Virus record (IMG/VR): IMGVR_UViG_3300042965_000182
Span: 1-64,000 of that record
DNA: 64,000 bases
Reading direction: 5' to 3' (one strand)
Source: a virus
Of the stretch, positions 2,984 through 48,563 are shown one piece after another. The notes under the pieces were generated by a model. The model made no database searches. It saw nothing but the letters and a program-made list of their open reading frames with translations, and was not told the origin of the DNA. Position numbers and translations under genes: made by a program. How positions within the stretch are numbered: the stretch's first letter is position 1; each line of letters opens with the position of its first letter.

Positions 2984-4615
2984 ATGAAACTGAAAAAATT
3001 GACAGCAAAAAATTTCCTTTCGTTTCAAGAATTCTCTCTTTCTTTTGACAATTCTTTTGTTATAGAAGGTATCAATATTGATGAAGGCGGCTCAAATGGT
3101 TCTGGTAAATCAGCAATAATAGAAGCGATTATTTGGGGTTTATATGGTGAAAATCTAAGAGGAGTAAATCAAGAACAACTTTTAAGATATGGTTCTAATT
3201 CTATGTCAGTTTCACTTCATTTTGATGATTTTACTTTAACAAGAACTTACAATAAAGAAGGTTCAAATGCTTATATTGTTTACAATTCAAAGAGGATAAC
3301 AGGTGTTAAAAATGTAAACAAGTTTATTGAAGAAAAATTCGGTAAATTTCAGGATTTTATGCTTTTTTCTTGTTTTACTGATAAATACAGGTTTTCAAAA
3401 TTAACAGAAACAGAAAGGAAGAAGTTAGTTGAGCGTTTTGTTGACTTAAAAAGGGTTGATGAACTTTTAGAAAAAGTAAAAGAAAAAGAAAACGAAATTA
3501 AAAGGGAACTTGACAATTTTTCAGTAAAGATTAAAATGATTGGTTCGTTTATAGAGCAACAGAAAAAAGAACTTTTAAATGTAAACGAAAAGTTAAAATT
3601 GATTGAAGAAGAAAAAATTGAAGAAATTGATTTAAATGAATATAACAAACTTCAAAGTTTAAAACAAGAAAAGAAGAATTTAGAGTTAGAGCTTTTAAAG
3701 TATAAAAAAGAATTAGAGAAAATAAAGCAGACAGAACAGGCATTAAAAAAGAAGGTTTGTCCTCTTTGTCAAAGACCTCTTGAAGAAGAAAAACTCAAAG
3801 AAATTGAACAGGAGCATTTAAAACTTGTAAACGAAATAACAAAGCAAAGTGAAAACATAAATAACAGCTTAGAGGTAATAAGTAAGGAAATAGAAAGGTT
3901 AAAACATTTAGATAAAATTGATATAAAGGAATATTTGAGGAAGTTGGAATTAAAGGGGCAAAAGAAACAATTAGTTGAATACAAAAAGGTTTTAGAGGAT
4001 ACCATTCAGAGAAAAACAGAAGAACTTAAAAACTATTTAAAAGAAGAGGAAAAATGGAAAAATCTTTATGAAGTAGCAGATTTTTGGAAAAAACAACTTG
4101 GTTATAAAGGTGTCAAAAACATACTTTTGAAATCATTTTTCAGTTCATTTGAAGAAGTGATAAACTACTATTTAGAGTTTTTTGGTTTTCCGTTTCAGGT
4201 TGAATTCCTTTATGATGAAGAAGAACGCTTTAAGGTTTATCTTGTAAACAGATTTGGCAGAAGGGAACTTGATACATTTTCACAAGGAGAAAAAAGGAAA
4301 TTTGACATTGCTGTAATTTTTGCTATTAGAGAACTTTTAAGAGGTAAACAAAATTCAATTGGTTGGCTCTTTTTTGATGAGGTTTTTGATGGGTTAGATA
4401 TTTCAAGTATTCAAAGGGTTTTAGAGGTGTTTGATACGCTTGAAGAAAACTTTGTTGTTGTCAGTCATATTTCGGTTCCATTTCCGTTTAAAAAAGTCAA
4501 AGTAGAAAAAGTAAATGGTATTTCAAAGGTTATAGTAGAGACTGCTTCTGATTTACAAATTGATACTAATTCCTTTATAATTAAAAACTTAAAACAAAAA
4601 GAGGAGGAATTATGA
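2984..4615 (+). CDS. gp46/SbcC/Rad50-like recombination ATPase
   Basis: An SMC-type ATPase of 543 residues, close in length to T4 gp46. Visible parts: Walker A GGSNGSGKS at 35-43, a long coiled coil split by a zinc hook CPLC at 259-262, the ABC signature FSQGEK from residue 432, Walker B ending in DE at 465-466, and the H-loop histidine in VVVSHIS. With an Mre11-like nuclease (gp47 type) such proteins resect DNA ends for recombination-dependent replication and repair. No Mre11 partner is in the window; it may lie upstream. The next gene starts within the stop codon (ATGA). Confidence 0.93.
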   Translation: MKLKKLTAKNFLSFQEFSLSFDNSFVIEGINIDEGGSNGSGKSAIIEAIIWGLYGENLRGVNQEQLLRYGSNSMSVSLHFDDFTLTRTYNKEGSNAYIVYNSKRITGVKNVNKFIEEKFGKFQDFMLFSCFTDKYRFSKLTETERKKLVERFVDLKRVDELLEKVKEKENEIKRELDNFSVKIKMIGSFIEQQKKELLNVNEKLKLIEEEKIEEIDLNEYNKLQSLKQEKKNLELELLKYKKELEKIKQTEQALKKKVCPLCQRPLEEEKLKEIEQEHLKLVNEITKQSENINNSLEVISKEIERLKHLDKIDIKEYLRKLELKGQKKQLVEYKKVLEDTIQRKTEELKNYLKEEEKWKNLYEVADFWKKQLGYKGVKNILLKSFFSSFEEVINYYLEFFGFPFQVEFLYDEEERFKVYLVNRFGRRELDTFSQGEKRKFDIAVIFAIRELLRGKQNSIGWLFFDEVFDGLDISSIQRVLEVFDTLEENFVVVSHISVPFPFKKVKVEKVNGISKVIVETASDLQIDTNSFIIKNLKQKEEEL

Positions 4616-22251: not shown

Positions 22252-22762
22252 GGATTTAAAAGGTTATTGGACTTTTATTTATGGTAAAATAGAAGCAGAA
22301 TACGAACAGGTCGCTTTTGATTTAATTTTAAAAGATTTTGGCATTGAAAATTACAACATTGTTAAGATTTCCTCAATTTTACCAAAAGGATTTAAATATA
22401 CAAATACTATAAAAGGTTTACCAGAAGAAGGCGAAATTCTTTATATGGCTTATGTTTACAAGTTTTTTACAAAAGAGGAAGTCATAAAAAATTTTGACAA
22501 AAAGTTTTCAATAGGTGTTTTAGTTGTTGAACCAGAAAACAAAGAGCAAACTGGTTTAATTTTAGAACTCAGCGATTTTTGTGATAAACAGACACTTGAA
22601 GAAAAGTTGGAATTACAGGCAAGGTATCTTTCAGCAATAAGGAGAAAGATAGAAGTAAAAGAAGTAAGGAAAAAGATTATTGAAACGGATTTTTTGACAA
22701 AAATCCATAAGAAAATGTTTTTCAAGCCATTTGGTATGTTAGTTGGTGTTTTGCTTTGGTAA
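22238..22762 (+). CDS. pyruvoyl-dependent arginine decarboxylase-like protein
   Basis: This 174-residue protein follows the PvlArgDC family closely: YNIVKISSILPKG at about 39-51 contains the self-cleaving Ser-Ser pair (S45-S46) that makes the pyruvoyl group. GLILELSDF (E110) matches the catalytic glutamate region, and the end FGMLVGVLLW matches the family C terminus. In archaea and chlamydiae the enzyme turns arginine into agmatine, the first step to polyamines. A phage copy may supply polyamines for DNA compaction or modification, or use up host arginine. It is next to an ATP-grasp ligase gene. Confidence 0.8.
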   Translation: MSLYKDLKGYWTFIYGKIEAEYEQVAFDLILKDFGIENYNIVKISSILPKGFKYTNTIKGLPEEGEILYMAYVYKFFTKEEVIKNFDKKFSIGVLVVEPENKEQTGLILELSDFCDKQTLEEKLELQARYLSAIRRKIEVKEVRKKIIETDFLTKIHKKMFFKPFGMLVGVLLW

Positions 22763-22763
22763 A

Positions 22764-24089
22764 ATGGCAAGGTTTTTGATTGTTGACAACTCTTTGGCTT
22801 TTGAAGTAGCAAGAAGGTTAAAAGAAGAAGAACACAATGTCAAATATTTTTCTACTTGGAAAAGGGTAGCAATTTTAGAAGAAGATGTAAGGTATATGGA
22901 AGGATTTGATAAATATTTTGGTATAGAAAGAGTTTCTGATTATTTATCTCATACTGATTGGGCTGACGCTATTATTTTTACTGATGTAAATTTTGGTGAA
23001 GAAAAAGATTGGTTAAGGGAAAAAGGTTATCCTGTTTTTGGTGCTTCAAAAGTTGGTGAAGATTTAGAAATTGACAGAGAAAAAGGTAATGAAAGTTTTA
23101 AAAAGTTAGGTTTAAAACTTATACCTCAGAAAAAATACAGAAATCCACAAGAGGCATTAAAAGATGTAAAAGAAGGAAAAGGTTATGTTATAAGGTTAAC
23201 ATCAGGTTTGGAAGGTGAAATAGCAAGAACTTTTGTTGCTGAATATTCAGAAGTAGCAAAGTATTGGTTGGAAACCCTTACTGGTAAAGGTTATGATGAA
23301 GAAGTAATTTTACAGGAACTTATTGAAGGAATAGAGGTGTCGGTTGGTGGTTTTTTCAATGGTAAGGAATGGGCTACTTTACCTTGTATAGTTTTTGAAG
23401 AAAAGAAATCTTTGGCTTGGGGTATGGGTTTTCTTTGTGGTGAAACAGGTTCTACTTTATATTTTGGTGATGAAGGTATTTTTATTAACAAGGTTTACAA
23501 GAAAATGGAAGAATATTTAAGGGGTATAAATGCTGGTTGTGGAAATTATGACATTAATACGATAATAACTTTTGATGGTGAAATTTATCCACTTGAATGG
23601 ACTTGTAGGTTTGGTTTTCCAACCATTTACATTCAGCATCCACTTTTTGAAGATTTTGGCGAACTTCTTTTGTCTTGTGTAAAAGGTAAAAAATATAAGA
23701 AAGGGTTAAAGACTGACTGGGCAATTGGAGTTTGTTGGTGTGCTGGAACCCATCCTCATTCAAGTTTAAGTAAAGAGATTGATGGTGTTCCCATACTTGG
23801 TGTTTTAGATTGTATAAAAGATTACAAATTTTACAGAGATGATAAGTATCTTGCTATTGATAGTATTGGTTATGATGATGGTAAAACATATTTAACACCT
23901 TCACCTGGTAGAACTGTGACCTGTGTTGGTGTTGGTAAGACTTTAAAAGAGGCACAAGAAAATGCTTTGGAAGTAGCAAGGAGGGTATATATACCAGAAG
24001 GTTATTATAGAAAAGATATTGGTGATAGAGTTTTTTATCAGCAAGTAATTTTGAATGAATTAGGTTTTTTAAAAAAAGAAGTTTTATAA
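22764..24089 (+). CDS. ATP-grasp ligase, PurD/GARS-like
   Basis: 441 residues, started at the ATG directly after the previous stop. It has the PurD-like arrangement: an N-terminal Rossmann part (MARFLIVDNSLAFEVARRL), a PVFGASKVGEDLEIDREKG segment, then the ATP-grasp fold with VIRLTSGLEGE, VILQELIEGIEVSVGGFF and a metal-binding end (YDINTIITFDGEIYPLEW). Classic PurD joins glycine to phosphoribosylamine; several phages carry diverged homologues whose substrates are unknown. Its place next to a decarboxylase and in a virion gene block argues against simple purine synthesis. Confidence 0.8.
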   Translation: MARFLIVDNSLAFEVARRLKEEEHNVKYFSTWKRVAILEEDVRYMEGFDKYFGIERVSDYLSHTDWADAIIFTDVNFGEEKDWLREKGYPVFGASKVGEDLEIDREKGNESFKKLGLKLIPQKKYRNPQEALKDVKEGKGYVIRLTSGLEGEIARTFVAEYSEVAKYWLETLTGKGYDEEVILQELIEGIEVSVGGFFNGKEWATLPCIVFEEKKSLAWGMGFLCGETGSTLYFGDEGIFINKVYKKMEEYLRGINAGCGNYDINTIITFDGEIYPLEWTCRFGFPTIYIQHPLFEDFGELLLSCVKGKKYKKGLKTDWAIGVCWCAGTHPHSSLSKEIDGVPILGVLDCIKDYKFYRDDKYLAIDSIGYDDGKTYLTPSPGRTVTCVGVGKTLKEAQENALEVARRVYIPEGYYRKDIGDRVFYQQVILNELGFLKKEVL

Positions 24090-36997: not shown

Positions 36998-38605
36998 ATG
37001 GCATTTATTAAGTATGCAACAGCAAAAATAATAGCAAGTTATGAGAATGAAGTAGCACTTTTAGAAAGTAATCCTGAATTAGAAAAGGTTTTAAATACAT
37101 TTAAGGTGATAAAGTTAGACCCTTCAAGGTATATGTATTTAAGGAACAGGGCAATCAGTTCATTAGAGACTTGGGGTTGTAATAGGAATGCTGATGGATT
37201 TCCTCGTATTGAATTACAGGAAAATCATCACACTTTCATTAATTCAAGGGTTTCAGTTGACCATAAAGACAATATTATTGTTGGTGTTGTAGTTGACAGT
37301 TATTTTGTTCCACCAAAAGTAGAAATAAAAGACGATATGATTATAAGGTCTGGTGATTATGTTGAGAACATTTTAGCACTTGATAAAAAGGTATTAGAAA
37401 GTTATAAGCCTGATGGTAAAAATTCACTTTTAGATTTAATTGTAAACGGAATAGTAACAGATACAAGTATGGGTGCTATTGTTGGTTATTCCATTTGTTC
37501 AGTGCCTACTTGTATGAATGTTGCTCATACAGAAAGCGAATATTGTGAGCATATAAAGTCAAAGAAAGGTTCAGTTATAAAACTTGCTTCTGGTATTGAT
37601 GTGCAGATTTTTGAAATTTGCAGACAGGTTACATTTTTTGAAGACAGTATTATTGTTCCGCTTGCTTATGGTGGGCTTGCTGGTGGTGAAGGTGCCGACC
37701 CTAACGCCAAGTTTTTAGAAAAGATTGCTACGACACCTTTAAAAACTTACATTGTTTATAGGGACAGGTTTTATTCTGATTTTACTAAAAAAGCACAAAT
37801 AGAAGAAAGACCACAGGTTTTAATACCTGAGAAAAAGGTATTAAGGAAAGAGTTTAAGGACGAAGACATAGAGTATACAAAGCAACAATTAAAGAAAAAT
37901 TTAGAGGAAGAACTATCAAAAACGATAGTAGTTGAAAAAGAGGAAGTTTCAGATGTTGTAGATTATCTTATAGAACTTCTTAAAAAGGGAACAGAGTTTA
38001 ATGAAGCGTTAAAACTTGCTTGGGAACACTTTAAAGGTTTAAAAGAGAAAACAGCACAGGAAAAGAAAAAAGAGGTAATAGTCGTAGATATAGATGGAAC
38101 ACTTTTTGATGTTTCTCATAGGTTAAAATACATTGAAAGTCCTCAAAAAGATTGGAAAAGGTTTTTCAGCGAAGAAGAGGTTTCAAAGGACAAGCCTTAT
38201 CCATCAGTAGTTGAATTTGTAAACACTTTAAGAGAAGAAACAGGTTTACCAATGGTTGTTTTAACAGGTAGACCTGAAACTTTAAGGGAATTAACAGAGA
38301 AACAATTAGAAGAAGCAGGTGTTAACTATGATGAACTTATAATGAAGCCAAAAGAAAGAAGTTTTGAGAAGGCTGTTTCATTCAAAAAAGATGTTTTAAA
38401 GAACTATGTTCCTGTTTATTTTATAGATGACGATTACAATAATTTAGCAGTTGTAAAGAAAGAGTTTCCTGATGCTAAGGTGTATCACGCTGATGATGGT
38501 AGAATAAAAGAGTTTTTTATTGGTGAAGTACTTGAAGAAAAAGTCAGTTTTTGGAAAAGAATATCTTTCAAAAAGGAGGGTAAATGGACAAGAAAATCAC
38601 TATAA
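36998..38605 (+). CDS. S80-type prohead protease fused to a HAD phosphatase domain
   Basis: 535 residues in two domains. Residues 1-260 match the phage prohead protease (T4 gp21/S80) pattern: HHTFINSRVSVDHKDN with D88-H89, a VGVVVDSYF strand, TDTSMGAIVGYSICSVPTC with probable nucleophile S157, EYCEHI, and the closing FFEDSIIVPLAYGG, NAKFLEKIA. Such proteases trim scaffold and capsid proteins. Then FTKKAQ (262-267) and EKTAQ (350-354) flank a linker. From about residue 360 a HAD hydrolase begins: VVDIDGTLFD with D364 and D366, VVLTGRPETLREL, and FIDDDYNN, like the 3'-phosphatase half of T4 polynucleotide kinase. Confidence 0.85.
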   Translation: MAFIKYATAKIIASYENEVALLESNPELEKVLNTFKVIKLDPSRYMYLRNRAISSLETWGCNRNADGFPRIELQENHHTFINSRVSVDHKDNIIVGVVVDSYFVPPKVEIKDDMIIRSGDYVENILALDKKVLESYKPDGKNSLLDLIVNGIVTDTSMGAIVGYSICSVPTCMNVAHTESEYCEHIKSKKGSVIKLASGIDVQIFEICRQVTFFEDSIIVPLAYGGLAGGEGADPNAKFLEKIATTPLKTYIVYRDRFYSDFTKKAQIEERPQVLIPEKKVLRKEFKDEDIEYTKQQLKKNLEEELSKTIVVEKEEVSDVVDYLIELLKKGTEFNEALKLAWEHFKGLKEKTAQEKKKEVIVVDIDGTLFDVSHRLKYIESPQKDWKRFFSEEEVSKDKPYPSVVEFVNTLREETGLPMVVLTGRPETLRELTEKQLEEAGVNYDELIMKPKERSFEKAVSFKKDVLKNYVPVYFIDDDYNNLAVVKKEFPDAKVYHADDGRIKEFFIGEVLEEKVSFWKRISFKKEGKWTRKSL

Positions 38606-41541: not shown

Positions 41542-42462
41542 ATGGAAGCAATGGCAACAATAAATAAGAAAGACCCACAGGTCTTACAAAGAGAACTGAT
41601 GAAGAAAGAAGCCGCTTTAGAGTTAGCGTTCAAGACACAAGTTGGTTTACAAAAGTTAGCACAGGCACTTGCTTCACCTGTCAGGAAGCATCTTGATTAT
41701 AGAGGGATAGGTAGAAGGTTATTTGTTACGGAGCCATATGTTGACCCAGGACCAATGTATTACGATGCCGATATAGCAGAGTTTGATGCGGTAATGATAG
41801 GAAGAGATGGAACAAGTAGAATGGTTGTGGTAAGAGCAACAAGAACAATATTACCAGAGTTTGAAGTAGCAGTAAGGGTAAAAATACCGTTTGCTGAGGT
41901 AAGAACGAGGAAGTATAAGGTTGTAGAAAGAGCGAAAGAAAGGTTAAAACAATCATTTGCTATTAGAGAAGATTTACTCATTTTCTCACTTGTCCATGAT
42001 GCTGTAATAGCAAGTAATCAACTAATAACGGCAACAGGAACTTTAATAAAAGAAGACCTTGCCGAAGCATTTTGGAGAGTAGAAAACAGAAGGTTAATAC
42101 CTCTTAATGTTCTCATTTCACCAGCAAGTGCTTATGCTATTAGGAATTGGGAAAGAGATCAGATTGAAGAAACAGCAAGGATAGAAATACGAAGAACTGG
42201 GTATCTTGGTGTTCTTTGGGGTGCTAACTTTTTAGTTTCTCAATTGATTAAGAAAGTGAACATTGGCGGAACAGATTACAATGTAGCATATGTTCTACCT
42301 GACCCTCAGTTTGTTGGTTGGTATCCTATTAGGGCAGATGTAGAAGTTATACCTGCTGATACACCTGATTTACTCTTACTTGGATTTGTTGGTTATCTCC
42401 AAGCAGGAATGATTTTACACAATATTTGGGCTGTTGCTGGTGTAGCGTTTACACAACCATAA
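41542..42462 (+). CDS. major capsid protein
   Basis: 306 residues. Residues 1-45 form a helical delta-like part with LMKKEAAL (19-26) and LQKLAQAL (36-43), the latter shared with the protein at 33396. The mature shell would start near SPVRKHLDYRGIGRRLF. The rest follows the HK97-type layout: an E-loop region (VVVRATRTILPEFEVAVR), a long spine helix (FAIREDLLIFSLVHDAVIAS), and a P-domain/A-domain with LNVLISPASAYAIRNW and TPDLLLLGFVGYLQAG. The unusually strong leader (AAATTTTAAAGGAGGG) and position after the scaffold support high expression. Confidence 0.85.
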   Translation: MEAMATINKKDPQVLQRELMKKEAALELAFKTQVGLQKLAQALASPVRKHLDYRGIGRRLFVTEPYVDPGPMYYDADIAEFDAVMIGRDGTSRMVVVRATRTILPEFEVAVRVKIPFAEVRTRKYKVVERAKERLKQSFAIREDLLIFSLVHDAVIASNQLITATGTLIKEDLAEAFWRVENRRLIPLNVLISPASAYAIRNWERDQIEETARIEIRRTGYLGVLWGANFLVSQLIKKVNIGGTDYNVAYVLPDPQFVGWYPIRADVEVIPADTPDLLLLGFVGYLQAGMILHNIWAVAGVAFTQP

Positions 42463-45439: not shown

Positions 45440-47311
45440 ATGGCACAAAGAGACATTATTGTTAGGAGGGTTGTTGGTGCAAGGGCTGTTCCAGCCCCTG
45501 TTGGAATACCCGTTATTATTCCTGCTGTTATTTGTAGAACACTTGGTAAAAAGACACAAGAAGTTGAAAGTATAACAAGGACACCACCTGGAACTGATTA
45601 TGTTTGGATTGACAGGTTAAAAGAAGATACAAAATTACCTTTAAATGAAATAAACGATATAGAGTATGTTTACACTTATACTGAGGGCGATAAAACTTAT
45701 AGTTTTAAATATGTTTTCAAAAGAGGAATACATTTCAGGTTTGTTAAGTTAAAAGACCAGGATACACCTGAAGTTGAAGAATATTTACCATTTGAAAATC
45801 TTCACATTACTGATTTAAAAGAAGGTGAAACACGAATTAGGTATGGTATTGATTGGTCGCAAGCACCACTTTTACCACCAGTTGAATTTGAAGCAGAACC
45901 AACTCAAAATGGAACTGGAACAAAGTTTTCTTCTGGTGATTATGAAATTAGGGTTTTTGCTGTAAGTTTACAAGCACCGACATCGGGTAGCGGGGGTCTA
46001 TATCTTGTTGGTCAATCTATTACTAAATTGCTAACATTATCAGAAGATGCTTATATTAGGGTGTCTTGGAAAAGAGTTGATTATGTTAAAGGTTATATTA
46101 TTGAAATAAAACGGGTTGGAGGTTCTACTTACAGGTTTTTTGTAAATCCGCATGTTACAGATAGGATTTTTATAGTAGAACTTACAGCGATAACATATAT
46201 TTCAGGTGGTAAACAAGTTCCTGAAAGCAACAAAGATTACACTTTGAATTACAAGTATTTAGTAAGGTTAGTTAATCAACCAGTTCTTTATTCAGCAATA
46301 GAACAAGTAAGGGAAGACCACGGATTAGGTTCAGAAGCATACAATATTGCAAGGTATTTTCTTTCAACTGAACTTGGTAATGCTCCATTTTTAGTGATAG
46401 TTGGAGTAGAAGAAGATAGTTTAGCAGGTTATTTGAATGCTTTAAAAACACTTGAAAGTGTTAATTGTCATTTAATCTTTGCTACTTATTATGGAACTGA
46501 TGTTTTAGATTTATGGGATGCTATGTATCAGCATTGTTTGGCACTTTCTGACCCTGTTACAGGTCAAAGAGAAAGGTATGCTGTTTTTGCTTTGAAAAAT
46601 GGTATTCAGTGGTATGACAATGAACTAAAAACTACTTTACAGCATTTTAGAGCAATGGAAGGTAAAGGTAAAAGGGCTTTCCTTGTTGTCTTTGATGGTG
46701 GAGAAATTACACTTAACACTTGGATAGAACAAGATGGTTCAATAACAAAAGACAAAAAAGTGTTAACGCAGAGTTTTGACGACATTACATCTCTATTTGG
46801 TGCTATGCTTGTTTTTGCAAGGTATTGTTCATTTAGAGACCCTGCTTCTTCATTAACAGAAAAATCTATACCTGGTTTAACATTTCAGAAGAATTCTTGG
46901 GGTGATGATGTTTACTTATATTTAAGGGATTTAGGTGCTTTTGTTGTAAGGAACGATTTAGGTTCAGCAGTTGTTGATTTAGATATAAATATGTCGTATG
47001 GTTTACTCGGTTTAAATGATTCACAACTACCTATCACAATGACAGAAGATTGGATGAAGCAAGATTTAAGAAGTAAGTTAAAAGTTTTCAGAGGTAAAAA
47101 GAATATAGAGTTAAGGTTAGCAAGTGTGATAAACTATATAAAACTAATTCTTGATTCGTATGTTTCTGCTGGTTTAATAACTTCATATGATGAAGGTTCA
47201 ATAAAAGTTGAAATACTTTCAACAGGACAACTAAAAGGTTATTTCAAATATACACCTGTTATAATTATCAATCAAATCTTGTTTGAATACGATTTTGAGT
47301 TTATTTTATAA
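45440..47311 (+). CDS. tail sheath protein
   Basis: 623 residues, after AAGGAGG. The contractile sheath subunit. The N terminus MAQRDIIVRRVVGARAVPAP belongs to the sheath arm region. Residues 150-250 contain an inserted beta-sandwich, FN3/Ig-like (FSSGDYEIRVFAVSLQAPTS). The C-terminal third shows the conserved sheath core: a QLPITMTEDWMKQDLRSKLK segment, a helix for spokes, and the closing strand VIIINQILFEYDFEFIL. The tube gene follows two genes on, the usual order in contractile-tailed phages. Confidence 0.85.
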   Translation: MAQRDIIVRRVVGARAVPAPVGIPVIIPAVICRTLGKKTQEVESITRTPPGTDYVWIDRLKEDTKLPLNEINDIEYVYTYTEGDKTYSFKYVFKRGIHFRFVKLKDQDTPEVEEYLPFENLHITDLKEGETRIRYGIDWSQAPLLPPVEFEAEPTQNGTGTKFSSGDYEIRVFAVSLQAPTSGSGGLYLVGQSITKLLTLSEDAYIRVSWKRVDYVKGYIIEIKRVGGSTYRFFVNPHVTDRIFIVELTAITYISGGKQVPESNKDYTLNYKYLVRLVNQPVLYSAIEQVREDHGLGSEAYNIARYFLSTELGNAPFLVIVGVEEDSLAGYLNALKTLESVNCHLIFATYYGTDVLDLWDAMYQHCLALSDPVTGQRERYAVFALKNGIQWYDNELKTTLQHFRAMEGKGKRAFLVVFDGGEITLNTWIEQDGSITKDKKVLTQSFDDITSLFGAMLVFARYCSFRDPASSLTEKSIPGLTFQKNSWGDDVYLYLRDLGAFVVRNDLGSAVVDLDINMSYGLLGLNDSQLPITMTEDWMKQDLRSKLKVFRGKKNIELRLASVINYIKLILDSYVSAGLITSYDEGSIKVEILSTGQLKGYFKYTPVIIINQILFEYDFEFIL

Positions 47312-47325
47312 AATAAGGAGATAAA

Positions 47326-47934
47326 ATGAAGAAGGTGATAACTACGACTTTTAGTGTTAGTATGTTGCCTGTTATTGGACAAGCAAATTTAAGAATAAGA
47401 GAGGTTAGCGAAGATACTTTCAATTCTGAACTTGGTGATGATTTTGAAAGTTATGTTGGACACGAAACTACTGCAAAGTTGTTAAGTGAAAAATTAGGTA
47501 AGGATATTAAGTTTAACAGAGCAAATTTAATGTTAGAACCTAATATGAGGTTATTTGTTGCTGTTCCTCAGTTCAGAGTAGAAGTAGCAAGAGAGTTTAC
47601 ACCAGAAGAAATAGAAAAAGCAAAATTCAGGTATTTTATTATTGAATTAATTCCTTCTGAAAAAGAGGTAAAAGGTGTAAGAGTAGAATTTAAGGTAAAA
47701 GATGGTGATTTGTATATTAACGATTACAAAGTTTTAAAGGCGTGGGAATCAATAGCAGGTTGGTATTGGTTTGGTGTTGAAGAAGTTGAACCTGGTCTTT
47801 GGTTTGGTCTTGTTCAAGGTTTTGAAGACGAATGGAGTTATTTTGATGAAAATGAATTAAAAGAGCTAATGAAAAGAGGTATAGTTTGGGAAATTAAAAA
47901 ACAAGATTTACCTTTTGCTGGAAGAAGAAGATAA
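47326..47934 (+). CDS. AcrIII-1-like (DUF1874) candidate viral ring nuclease with C-terminal extension
   Basis: 202 residues. The first 105 align along their length with DUF1874/AcrIII-1 (SIRV1 gp29 type): FSVSMLP, SYVGHETTAKLLSEKLG (H46 corresponds to catalytic H47), KFNRAN (R65, cf. R66), and LFVAVPQFRVEVAREFTPEE (R84, cf. R85). One position, E88 in gp29, appears to be V87 here. AcrIII-1 destroys the cyclic tetra-adenylate messenger of type III CRISPR and blocks that defence. Residues 110-202 (AGWYWFGVEEVEPGLWFGLV, DEWSYFDENEL) form a second domain, perhaps DUF2958-like. It sits between sheath and tube genes, an unexpected place. Confidence 0.75.
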   Translation: MKKVITTTFSVSMLPVIGQANLRIREVSEDTFNSELGDDFESYVGHETTAKLLSEKLGKDIKFNRANLMLEPNMRLFVAVPQFRVEVAREFTPEEIEKAKFRYFIIELIPSEKEVKGVRVEFKVKDGDLYINDYKVLKAWESIAGWYWFGVEEVEPGLWFGLVQGFEDEWSYFDENELKELMKRGIVWEIKKQDLPFAGRRR

Positions 47935-48005: not shown

Positions 48006-48563
48006 ATGGCAGGTTTAGTTTCAACAAGAGGTTATGGTGTAGGTATACCACCAAGCAATAAGGTTGTCATTCCGTTTTCTTGCACAATTTACGATTTAGA
48101 AGGGAATGAAGTTGGTTATATGATTTCAATTACTTATGATACGACAAGGAGAGTTGAAAGGATTAGGCATTTAAATGCTTTTGATGCTGGTAGGATAATA
48201 GAGCAAGCCCCTGCCCCAGAAGATTATTCTGTTTCAGGTGAGGGTTTTACTTTATATACTGACGATTTAGCAAATCCTCAGAGTGTAATTGGAAGGTTAA
48301 CAAAAGAAACAGGTCTGGCAGTATTTGAATGCTTAAATCAGCAAAGGATACCTTTTAATATTGTAAAAGAAGTCGTTCATCCTGCTACTGGTATAGGTTA
48401 TCAAACGATTTTCTATGAATGTTGGTTAGCAAGGTATTCAGAGACTTTTGCTACAAGGAATGTTGTTGTTTCAGCAAATGTTTCAATACAGCCAACTTTT
48501 GTTGAAAGCAGGATTGTTCAAGTTTCTGGTGCTGGTGGTAAACAACCAATTCCGAGAAGTTAA
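48006..48563 (+). CDS. tail tube protein
   Basis: 185 residues, after an AAAAAATTTTAAGGAGGT leader like that of the capsid gene. Beta-rich (VVIPFSCTIYDLEGNEVGYM, VVSANVSIQPTFVESRIVQV). Position directly after the sheath region and before the tail chaperones, and size, identify the tube subunit that stacks inside the sheath. Fold similarity is inferred. Confidence 0.8.
   Translation: MAGLVSTRGYGVGIPPSNKVVIPFSCTIYDLEGNEVGYMISITYDTTRRVERIRHLNAFDAGRIIEQAPAPEDYSVSGEGFTLYTDDLANPQSVIGRLTKETGLAVFECLNQQRIPFNIVKEVVHPATGIGYQTIFYECWLARYSETFATRNVVVSANVSIQPTFVESRIVQVSGAGGKQPIPRS

Follow-up and report, generated by a model that had tools for sequence, protein, structure and literature searches.

A two-domain DUF1874–GWYWF protein encoded in the tail operon of a virus

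Introduction

Why should a virus keep a gene that resembles AcrIII-1 among its tail genes, and could the product still act on cyclic oligoadenylate? AcrIII-1 is a viral enzyme that degrades an immune signal of bacteria. The gene that raises the question lies in a stretch of viral DNA of 64,000 nucleotides (referred to as the window), and a preliminary description had listed it as a candidate AcrIII-1 viral ring nuclease with an added C-terminal domain, embedded between tail sheath and tail tube genes. Here we analyse the gene, both domains of its product and its genomic context.

Results

The gene and its place in the tail operon

The gene (47326-47934, plus strand) encodes a protein of 202 aa with two domains, DUF1874 (AcrIII-1 fold) and GWYWF (DUF2958-like). 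It starts 15 bp after the end of the sheath gene, and a Shine-Dalgarno-like AAGGAG with its spacer lies directly 5' of the start codon (47315-47325, plus strand). This ribosome site and the in-frame homologues found for both halves speak for a real gene. Its GC content, third-position GC content and codon usage are like those of the other genes of the window, which counts against an assembly chimera. It is the sole DUF1874 match in the 65.9-kb virus record. No close relatives of the whole protein were found in IMG/VR or GTDB genomes, and IMG/VR likewise gave none for the sheath or for the major head protein; searched by megablast, the final 24 kb of the window matched no phage.

The gene sits inside a structural block (31198-60747, plus strand) that encodes portal, major head protein, sheath, tube, tape measure, hub and baseplate J proteins. 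Its upstream neighbour (45440-47311, plus strand, 623 aa) is the tail sheath gene (phrog_279, E 2.5e-5; BLASTP 1e-5 to phage G gp178). The downstream neighbour (48006-48563, plus strand, 185 aa) is the probable tail tube gene, judged by its position and its similarity to phage G gp180 (BLASTP 1e-12) and gp179 (2e-9). The gene order given in the preliminary description was thus right, with the tube assigned by position and similarity. No terminator was found between the DUF1874 gene and the tube gene. In phage G the order is sheath gp178, then gp179 and gp180 (annotated virion structural proteins), then chaperones and the tape measure, and both gp179 and gp180 are related to the protein encoded at 48006-48563. 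Nothing between sheath and tube in phage G resembles the DUF1874 protein, so the window carries a DUF1874 gene at a site where phage G has none. We considered gp179 as a positional counterpart and rejected it, as it is a gp180-like virion protein with no similarity to the DUF1874 protein.

For comparison, we surveyed 131 genes beside 37 viral DUF1874 genes. Among the best 25 of 84 neighbour families, polymerases, RecT/Bet annealing proteins, integrases and ParB make up most of the best-annotated neighbours, and one is a major head protein. Since these best-annotated neighbours belong mostly to DNA metabolism, the tail-operon site looks unusual, in agreement with the earlier remark that the position is unexpected.

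Several other genes of the window were observed. In the head-gene region, a gene at 36998-38605 encodes a protein of 535 aa. Its C-terminal domain is a PNKP-type HAD phosphatase (phrog_415, E 1e-25), and its N-terminal part weakly matches head maturation proteases; no kinase domain was recognised in the protein, which places a second nucleotide-processing domain within the structural block. The major head protein (41542-42462) is 35% identical to its counterpart in Bacillus phage G, a phage of 497 kb; the present record (65.9 kb) may be part of a larger genome or may come from a small relative. The start of the window encodes an N6/N4 DNA methylase (129-1199) and an SbcC/Rad50-like ATPase (2984-4615), and a protein of 448 aa (22743-24089) matches the C-domain of GARS (purine biosynthesis) with an E-value of 1e-8, just above the cut-off.

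The N-terminal half has the DUF1874 fold

Residues 1 to ~110 (47326-47655, plus strand) form the DUF1874 domain, as indicated by Pfam, PHROG, Foldseek and residue counts. The proposed homology was borne out by profile search: PF08960 (DUF1874) matches with an E-value of 1.1e-9 (38.8 bits; the cut-off is 26), and phrog_5063 matches residues 5-108 of the 202-aa protein (E 1.6e-13). Among proteins in the PDB, sequence matches were found to AFV3-109 (E 1.2e-4), SIRV1 gp29 (E 3.2e-4) and, more weakly, STIV B116. The closest characterised phage relative by BLAST is the THSA-485A AcrIII-1 (41% over 75 residues), and identities to AcrIII-1 proteins are mostly 20-36% in the alignments made.

The N-terminal half was modelled by AlphaFold2 as a single chain with 60 relatives as input, separately from the C-terminal half; a joint alignment put DUF2958 rows on the wrong half. 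Most of the N-terminal model is confident (pLDDT mostly >95 for residues 1-80). Its best Foldseek matches are 6scf, 2x4i, 2j6b and 2j85, and the top match, 6scf (E 3.9e-8, target-normalised TM 0.79-0.80), is an AcrIII-1 crystal structure, so the predicted fold resembles that of AcrIII-1. By sequence and predicted fold, the N-terminal half is a member of the DUF1874 superfamily.

Active-site residues are partly kept and partly lost

We gathered 116 distinct DUF1874 relatives from named viruses, plasmids, IMG/VR and GTDB genomes. In this collection (made by sequence patterns, so that its conservation figures are not those of a random sample), the catalytic histidine, H47 in SIRV1 gp29 and H46 here, is present in 116 of the 116 relatives, and the arginines R66 and R85, kept here as R65 and R84, are each present in 115. 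G45, T49 and N64 of the N-terminal domain are also kept. The nearly invariant N8, E88 and G89, by contrast with these, are T7, V87 and A88 in the window protein. Because the loci had been found by patterns, each position was checked in a set whose patterns omitted that position: N8 is present in 38 out of 39 genome relatives and E88 in 63 out of 64 viral relatives, two sets not selected on the respective motif. The window protein is the only one among the 117 sequences that lacks both N8 and E88. Between R84 and the EEI motif it aligns to SIRV1 gp29 without gaps, and the residue mapping made earlier (H46, R65 and R84 kept; V87 in place of E88) is correct; the losses of N8 and G89 are additional to it.

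In the DUF1874 tree, a rough one of 106 columns, the window protein has the longest branch (2.6 changes per site; the median is 0.28), and its position is unresolved among the bacterial-type sequences, apart from the SIRV/AFV group. Of the three other sequences that lack E88, two (vir080 and SRV ORF148) have the next-longest branches. The third (L107) has an ordinary branch (0.61), and the link between E88 loss and a long branch is therefore only suggestive. The long branch and the lost residues suggest a changed constraint, and the branch length fits either a loss or a change of function. The earlier AcrIII-1 reading thus stands as regards the predicted fold, the catalytic histidine and the two arginines, and is weakened by the loss of both N8 and E88 and by the longest branch. 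We file the protein as having the DUF1874 fold, by sequence and model, and not as an established AcrIII-1 enzyme, since residues that hardly vary in the family are missing and the activity is a prediction.

The C-terminal half is a GWYWF domain distantly related to DUF2958

The added C-terminal domain proposed earlier was recovered as a unit with independent homologues and a length of ~85-95 residues; profile comparison and the AlphaFold2 model place it at residues 118-202 (47677-47931, plus strand). Pfam, PHROG and NCBIfam scans of the C-terminal half gave nothing significant. Weak tblastn matches pointed to DUF2958 (PF11171), a family rarely mentioned in the literature searched and listed in one paper as of unknown function. 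As the Pfam model of DUF2958 gave no match above its cut-off in the window, the relationship was probed by hhalign with a profile built from 24 DUF2958 relatives, and 300 shuffles and 170 other segments of the window served as controls: the C-terminal domain scored 51.6 (probability 95.8%), whereas the maxima were 27.1 for the shuffles and 17.6 for the segments. Adding the stand-alone protein L165 (below) raised the probability to 97.4%. The K, W, E and D columns that are invariant in the joint DUF2958 alignment are kept in the domain, although the relationship is below Pfam detection and the N-terminal part could not be aligned by hhalign. We regard the GWYWF domain as a distant relative of DUF2958.

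A scan with the domain alone revealed a stand-alone phage protein of 83 aa (L165) that is 60% identical to the C-terminal half. The second scan found at least 21 GWYWF loci in IMG/VR (L164-L184), with ~16 distinct proteins among the matches listed, mostly of 83-98 aa. These proteins have the GWYWF core in common, and an AGRR or SGRR tail closes nearly every one of them; the core, an FG.VQG motif and an AGRR-type tail are all present in the C-terminal domain of the window protein. The stand-alone GWYWF protein that was scanned matched no Pfam or PHROG model. Within the flanks examined, no DUF1874 domain is fused to or near the stand-alone GWYWF genes, and no DUF2958 genes lie near the collected DUF1874 genes, so there is no neighbourhood link between DUF2958 and DUF1874. 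The AlphaFold2 model of the C-terminal half (mean pLDDT 82) gave weak SH3-like matches only against the PDB (E 0.35 or worse) and one strong match among viral predictions (A0A516LHZ0, 48% identical, E 1.9e-8). GWYWF is a separate and widespread phage domain, undescribed as far as the libraries searched show. Its fusion to DUF1874, unusually placed as it is, is the only one among the matches listed from the material searched, in collections sampled by patterns.

Genomic contexts of stand-alone GWYWF genes

In five loci (L166, L173, L177, L180 and L181) a ThiF-like gene is found directly after the GWYWF gene or one gene further; that of L180 matches Pfam ThiF with an E-value of 8e-17. Several of these loci also encode a protein with an HTHPF..S..D motif, which gave no match in Pfam and looks like a JAB/JAMM peptidase from its sequence. 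TFIIB-like zinc ribbons (a weak match) are encoded nearby, and so is Cpn60 in one locus. Such a cluster of GWYWF, ThiF-like and (in several loci) JAB-like genes resembles parts of ubiquitin-like conjugation systems. As the viruses with GWYWF and ThiF-like genes have several genes in common, they may be one lineage, probably of archaeal viruses. The remaining GWYWF loci have different neighbours. In the loci seen, GWYWF genes are among non-structural-looking genes, few of them identified.

Discussion

Relation to known systems

The window protein shares with AcrIII-1 (SIRV1 gp29 and that of the Thermoanaerobacterium phage THSA-485A) the predicted fold, the catalytic histidine, the equivalents of R66 and R85, and the GH..T and NR motifs, and differs from it at N8, L86, E88 and G89, in its C-terminal domain and in its tail-operon position. 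A DUF1874 domain is likewise fused to another domain in the Crn2 family, in Marinitoga Csx1-Crn2 (PDB 8y7f, 8y7g; PMC7293037). There, however, the DUF1874 domain is C-terminal, its partner is a cA4-activated ribonuclease and the gene belongs to a cellular CRISPR locus, whereas in the window protein the DUF1874 domain is N-terminal and its partner a small phage domain. The stand-alone GWYWF proteins, close to the C-terminal half in sequence, size and tail, differ in having no DUF1874 fusion. Two further DUF1874 loci were observed in our collection. In a delta-proteobacterial MAG (L158:3027-5306), a frame of 760 codons has DUF1874 at its end and a weak Csa3_N (CARF-like) match upstream, and may be another effector-Crn2 fusion. 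In a Thermoanaerobacterium plasmid (L045:2995-4506), the gene immediately after a DUF1874 gene is annotated as a polynucleotide adenylyltransferase region.

A possible late-acting protein

We tentatively favour, with somewhat less than even confidence, a protein made late whose role is to bind cyclic oligoadenylate and perhaps to cleave it slowly. What favours it is that the related THSA-485A AcrIII-1 abolishes cA4-dependent immunity in vivo (PMC7371418) and that the histidine of AcrIII-1, kept here, is the general acid (PMC12830947). The strongly diverged AcrIII-1-fold domain would dimerise and hold cA4 or a close relative by R65, R84 and H46, and the loss of E88-G89 and N8 suggests a slower turnover or an altered specificity compared with AcrIII-1. 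The GWYWF domain, presumably a mobile phage module, would probably target or tether the first domain; alternatively, it may provide a second host-takeover activity. As its gene belongs to the tail operon, synthesis of the protein would fall in the late phase, in which late-gene transcripts can trigger type III CRISPR signalling, and it would lower the cyclic oligoadenylate signal at that stage; a thermophilic setting with type III CRISPR is assumed for this virus.

Late timing is a problem for an anti-CRISPR reading. The SIRV2 AcrIII-1, which has middle-stage expression, showed no anti-CRISPR effect when expressed from its native promoter (PMC11065993), and a gene expressed late may therefore be ineffective too. 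On the other hand, late-transcribed viral targets are where nuclease effectors matter most (PMC7213978), and injected counter-defence proteins encoded by late genes are known (PMC5512222).

Alternative explanations

The site between sheath and tube, inside a structural block, would be explained if the AcrIII-1 fold had lost its cyclic-nucleotide role and had been taken over for tail assembly or some other function in the phage. Such an exaptation would agree with the longest branch of the tree, with the lack of E88 on the next two longest as well, and with the loss of N8, E88 and G89. But it gives no need to keep H46, G45, T49, N64, R65 and R84, phage G has nothing similar between sheath and tube, and the domain in the C-terminal half is a phage accessory module found, in the loci seen, among non-structural-looking genes (few of them identified). 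On balance we consider exaptation rather unlikely.

The kept arginines and the missing E88-G89, both nearly invariant, could also mean that the protein is a sponge, which binds cyclic oligoadenylate tightly and hardly cleaves it. The H47A variant of SIRV1 gp29 still binds cA4 tightly (~25 nM; PMC7213978), and sponge proteins are a known phage strategy (PMC11722364). However, a sponge would not call for the catalytic histidine H46, which is kept, and the loss of N8, nearly invariant too, could weaken binding; we think a pure sponge unlikely.

Distinctly improbable, in our judgement, is a normal, fast AcrIII-1 that is packed into the virion, injected and active at the start of infection. The late-operon position would suit such delivery, injected counter-defence proteins encoded by late genes are well described (PMC5512222), and AcrIII-1 seems to need early action (PMC11065993). 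But E88, G89 and N8 are absent, and the best 25 of 84 neighbour families showed none of the relatives in a tail operon and one beside a head gene.

Finally, it is very unlikely that the ORF arose by chance, was wrongly predicted or stems from a chimeric assembly: the protein comes from one metagenomic contig of a virus without a close relative in IMG/VR or GTDB genomes, but each half has independent in-frame homologues, and the gene has a ribosome site and native codon usage.

Implications

A broader idea, which we put forward as doubtful, is that the GWYWF/DUF2958-like domain is an unrecognised counter-defence module, of which this phage would carry a late, tail-linked version. If true, the fusion together with the context of ThiF-like (E1-type), JAB-like and chaperonin genes in a group of probably archaeal viruses would tie a common family of unknown function to the disruption of immunity based on nucleotide signals.

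Early expression is considered necessary for viral ring nucleases, and homologues without early control were called enigmatic in the SIRV2 study (PMC11065993). With a DUF1874 protein encoded in a tail operon, one can ask by experiment whether a ring-nuclease fold is able to work at a late stage or from the virion. Likewise, a protein that keeps the histidine and lacks the nearly invariant glutamate makes it testable whether E88 is needed. For the GWYWF and DUF2958 families, the fusion also offers a first hint at function.
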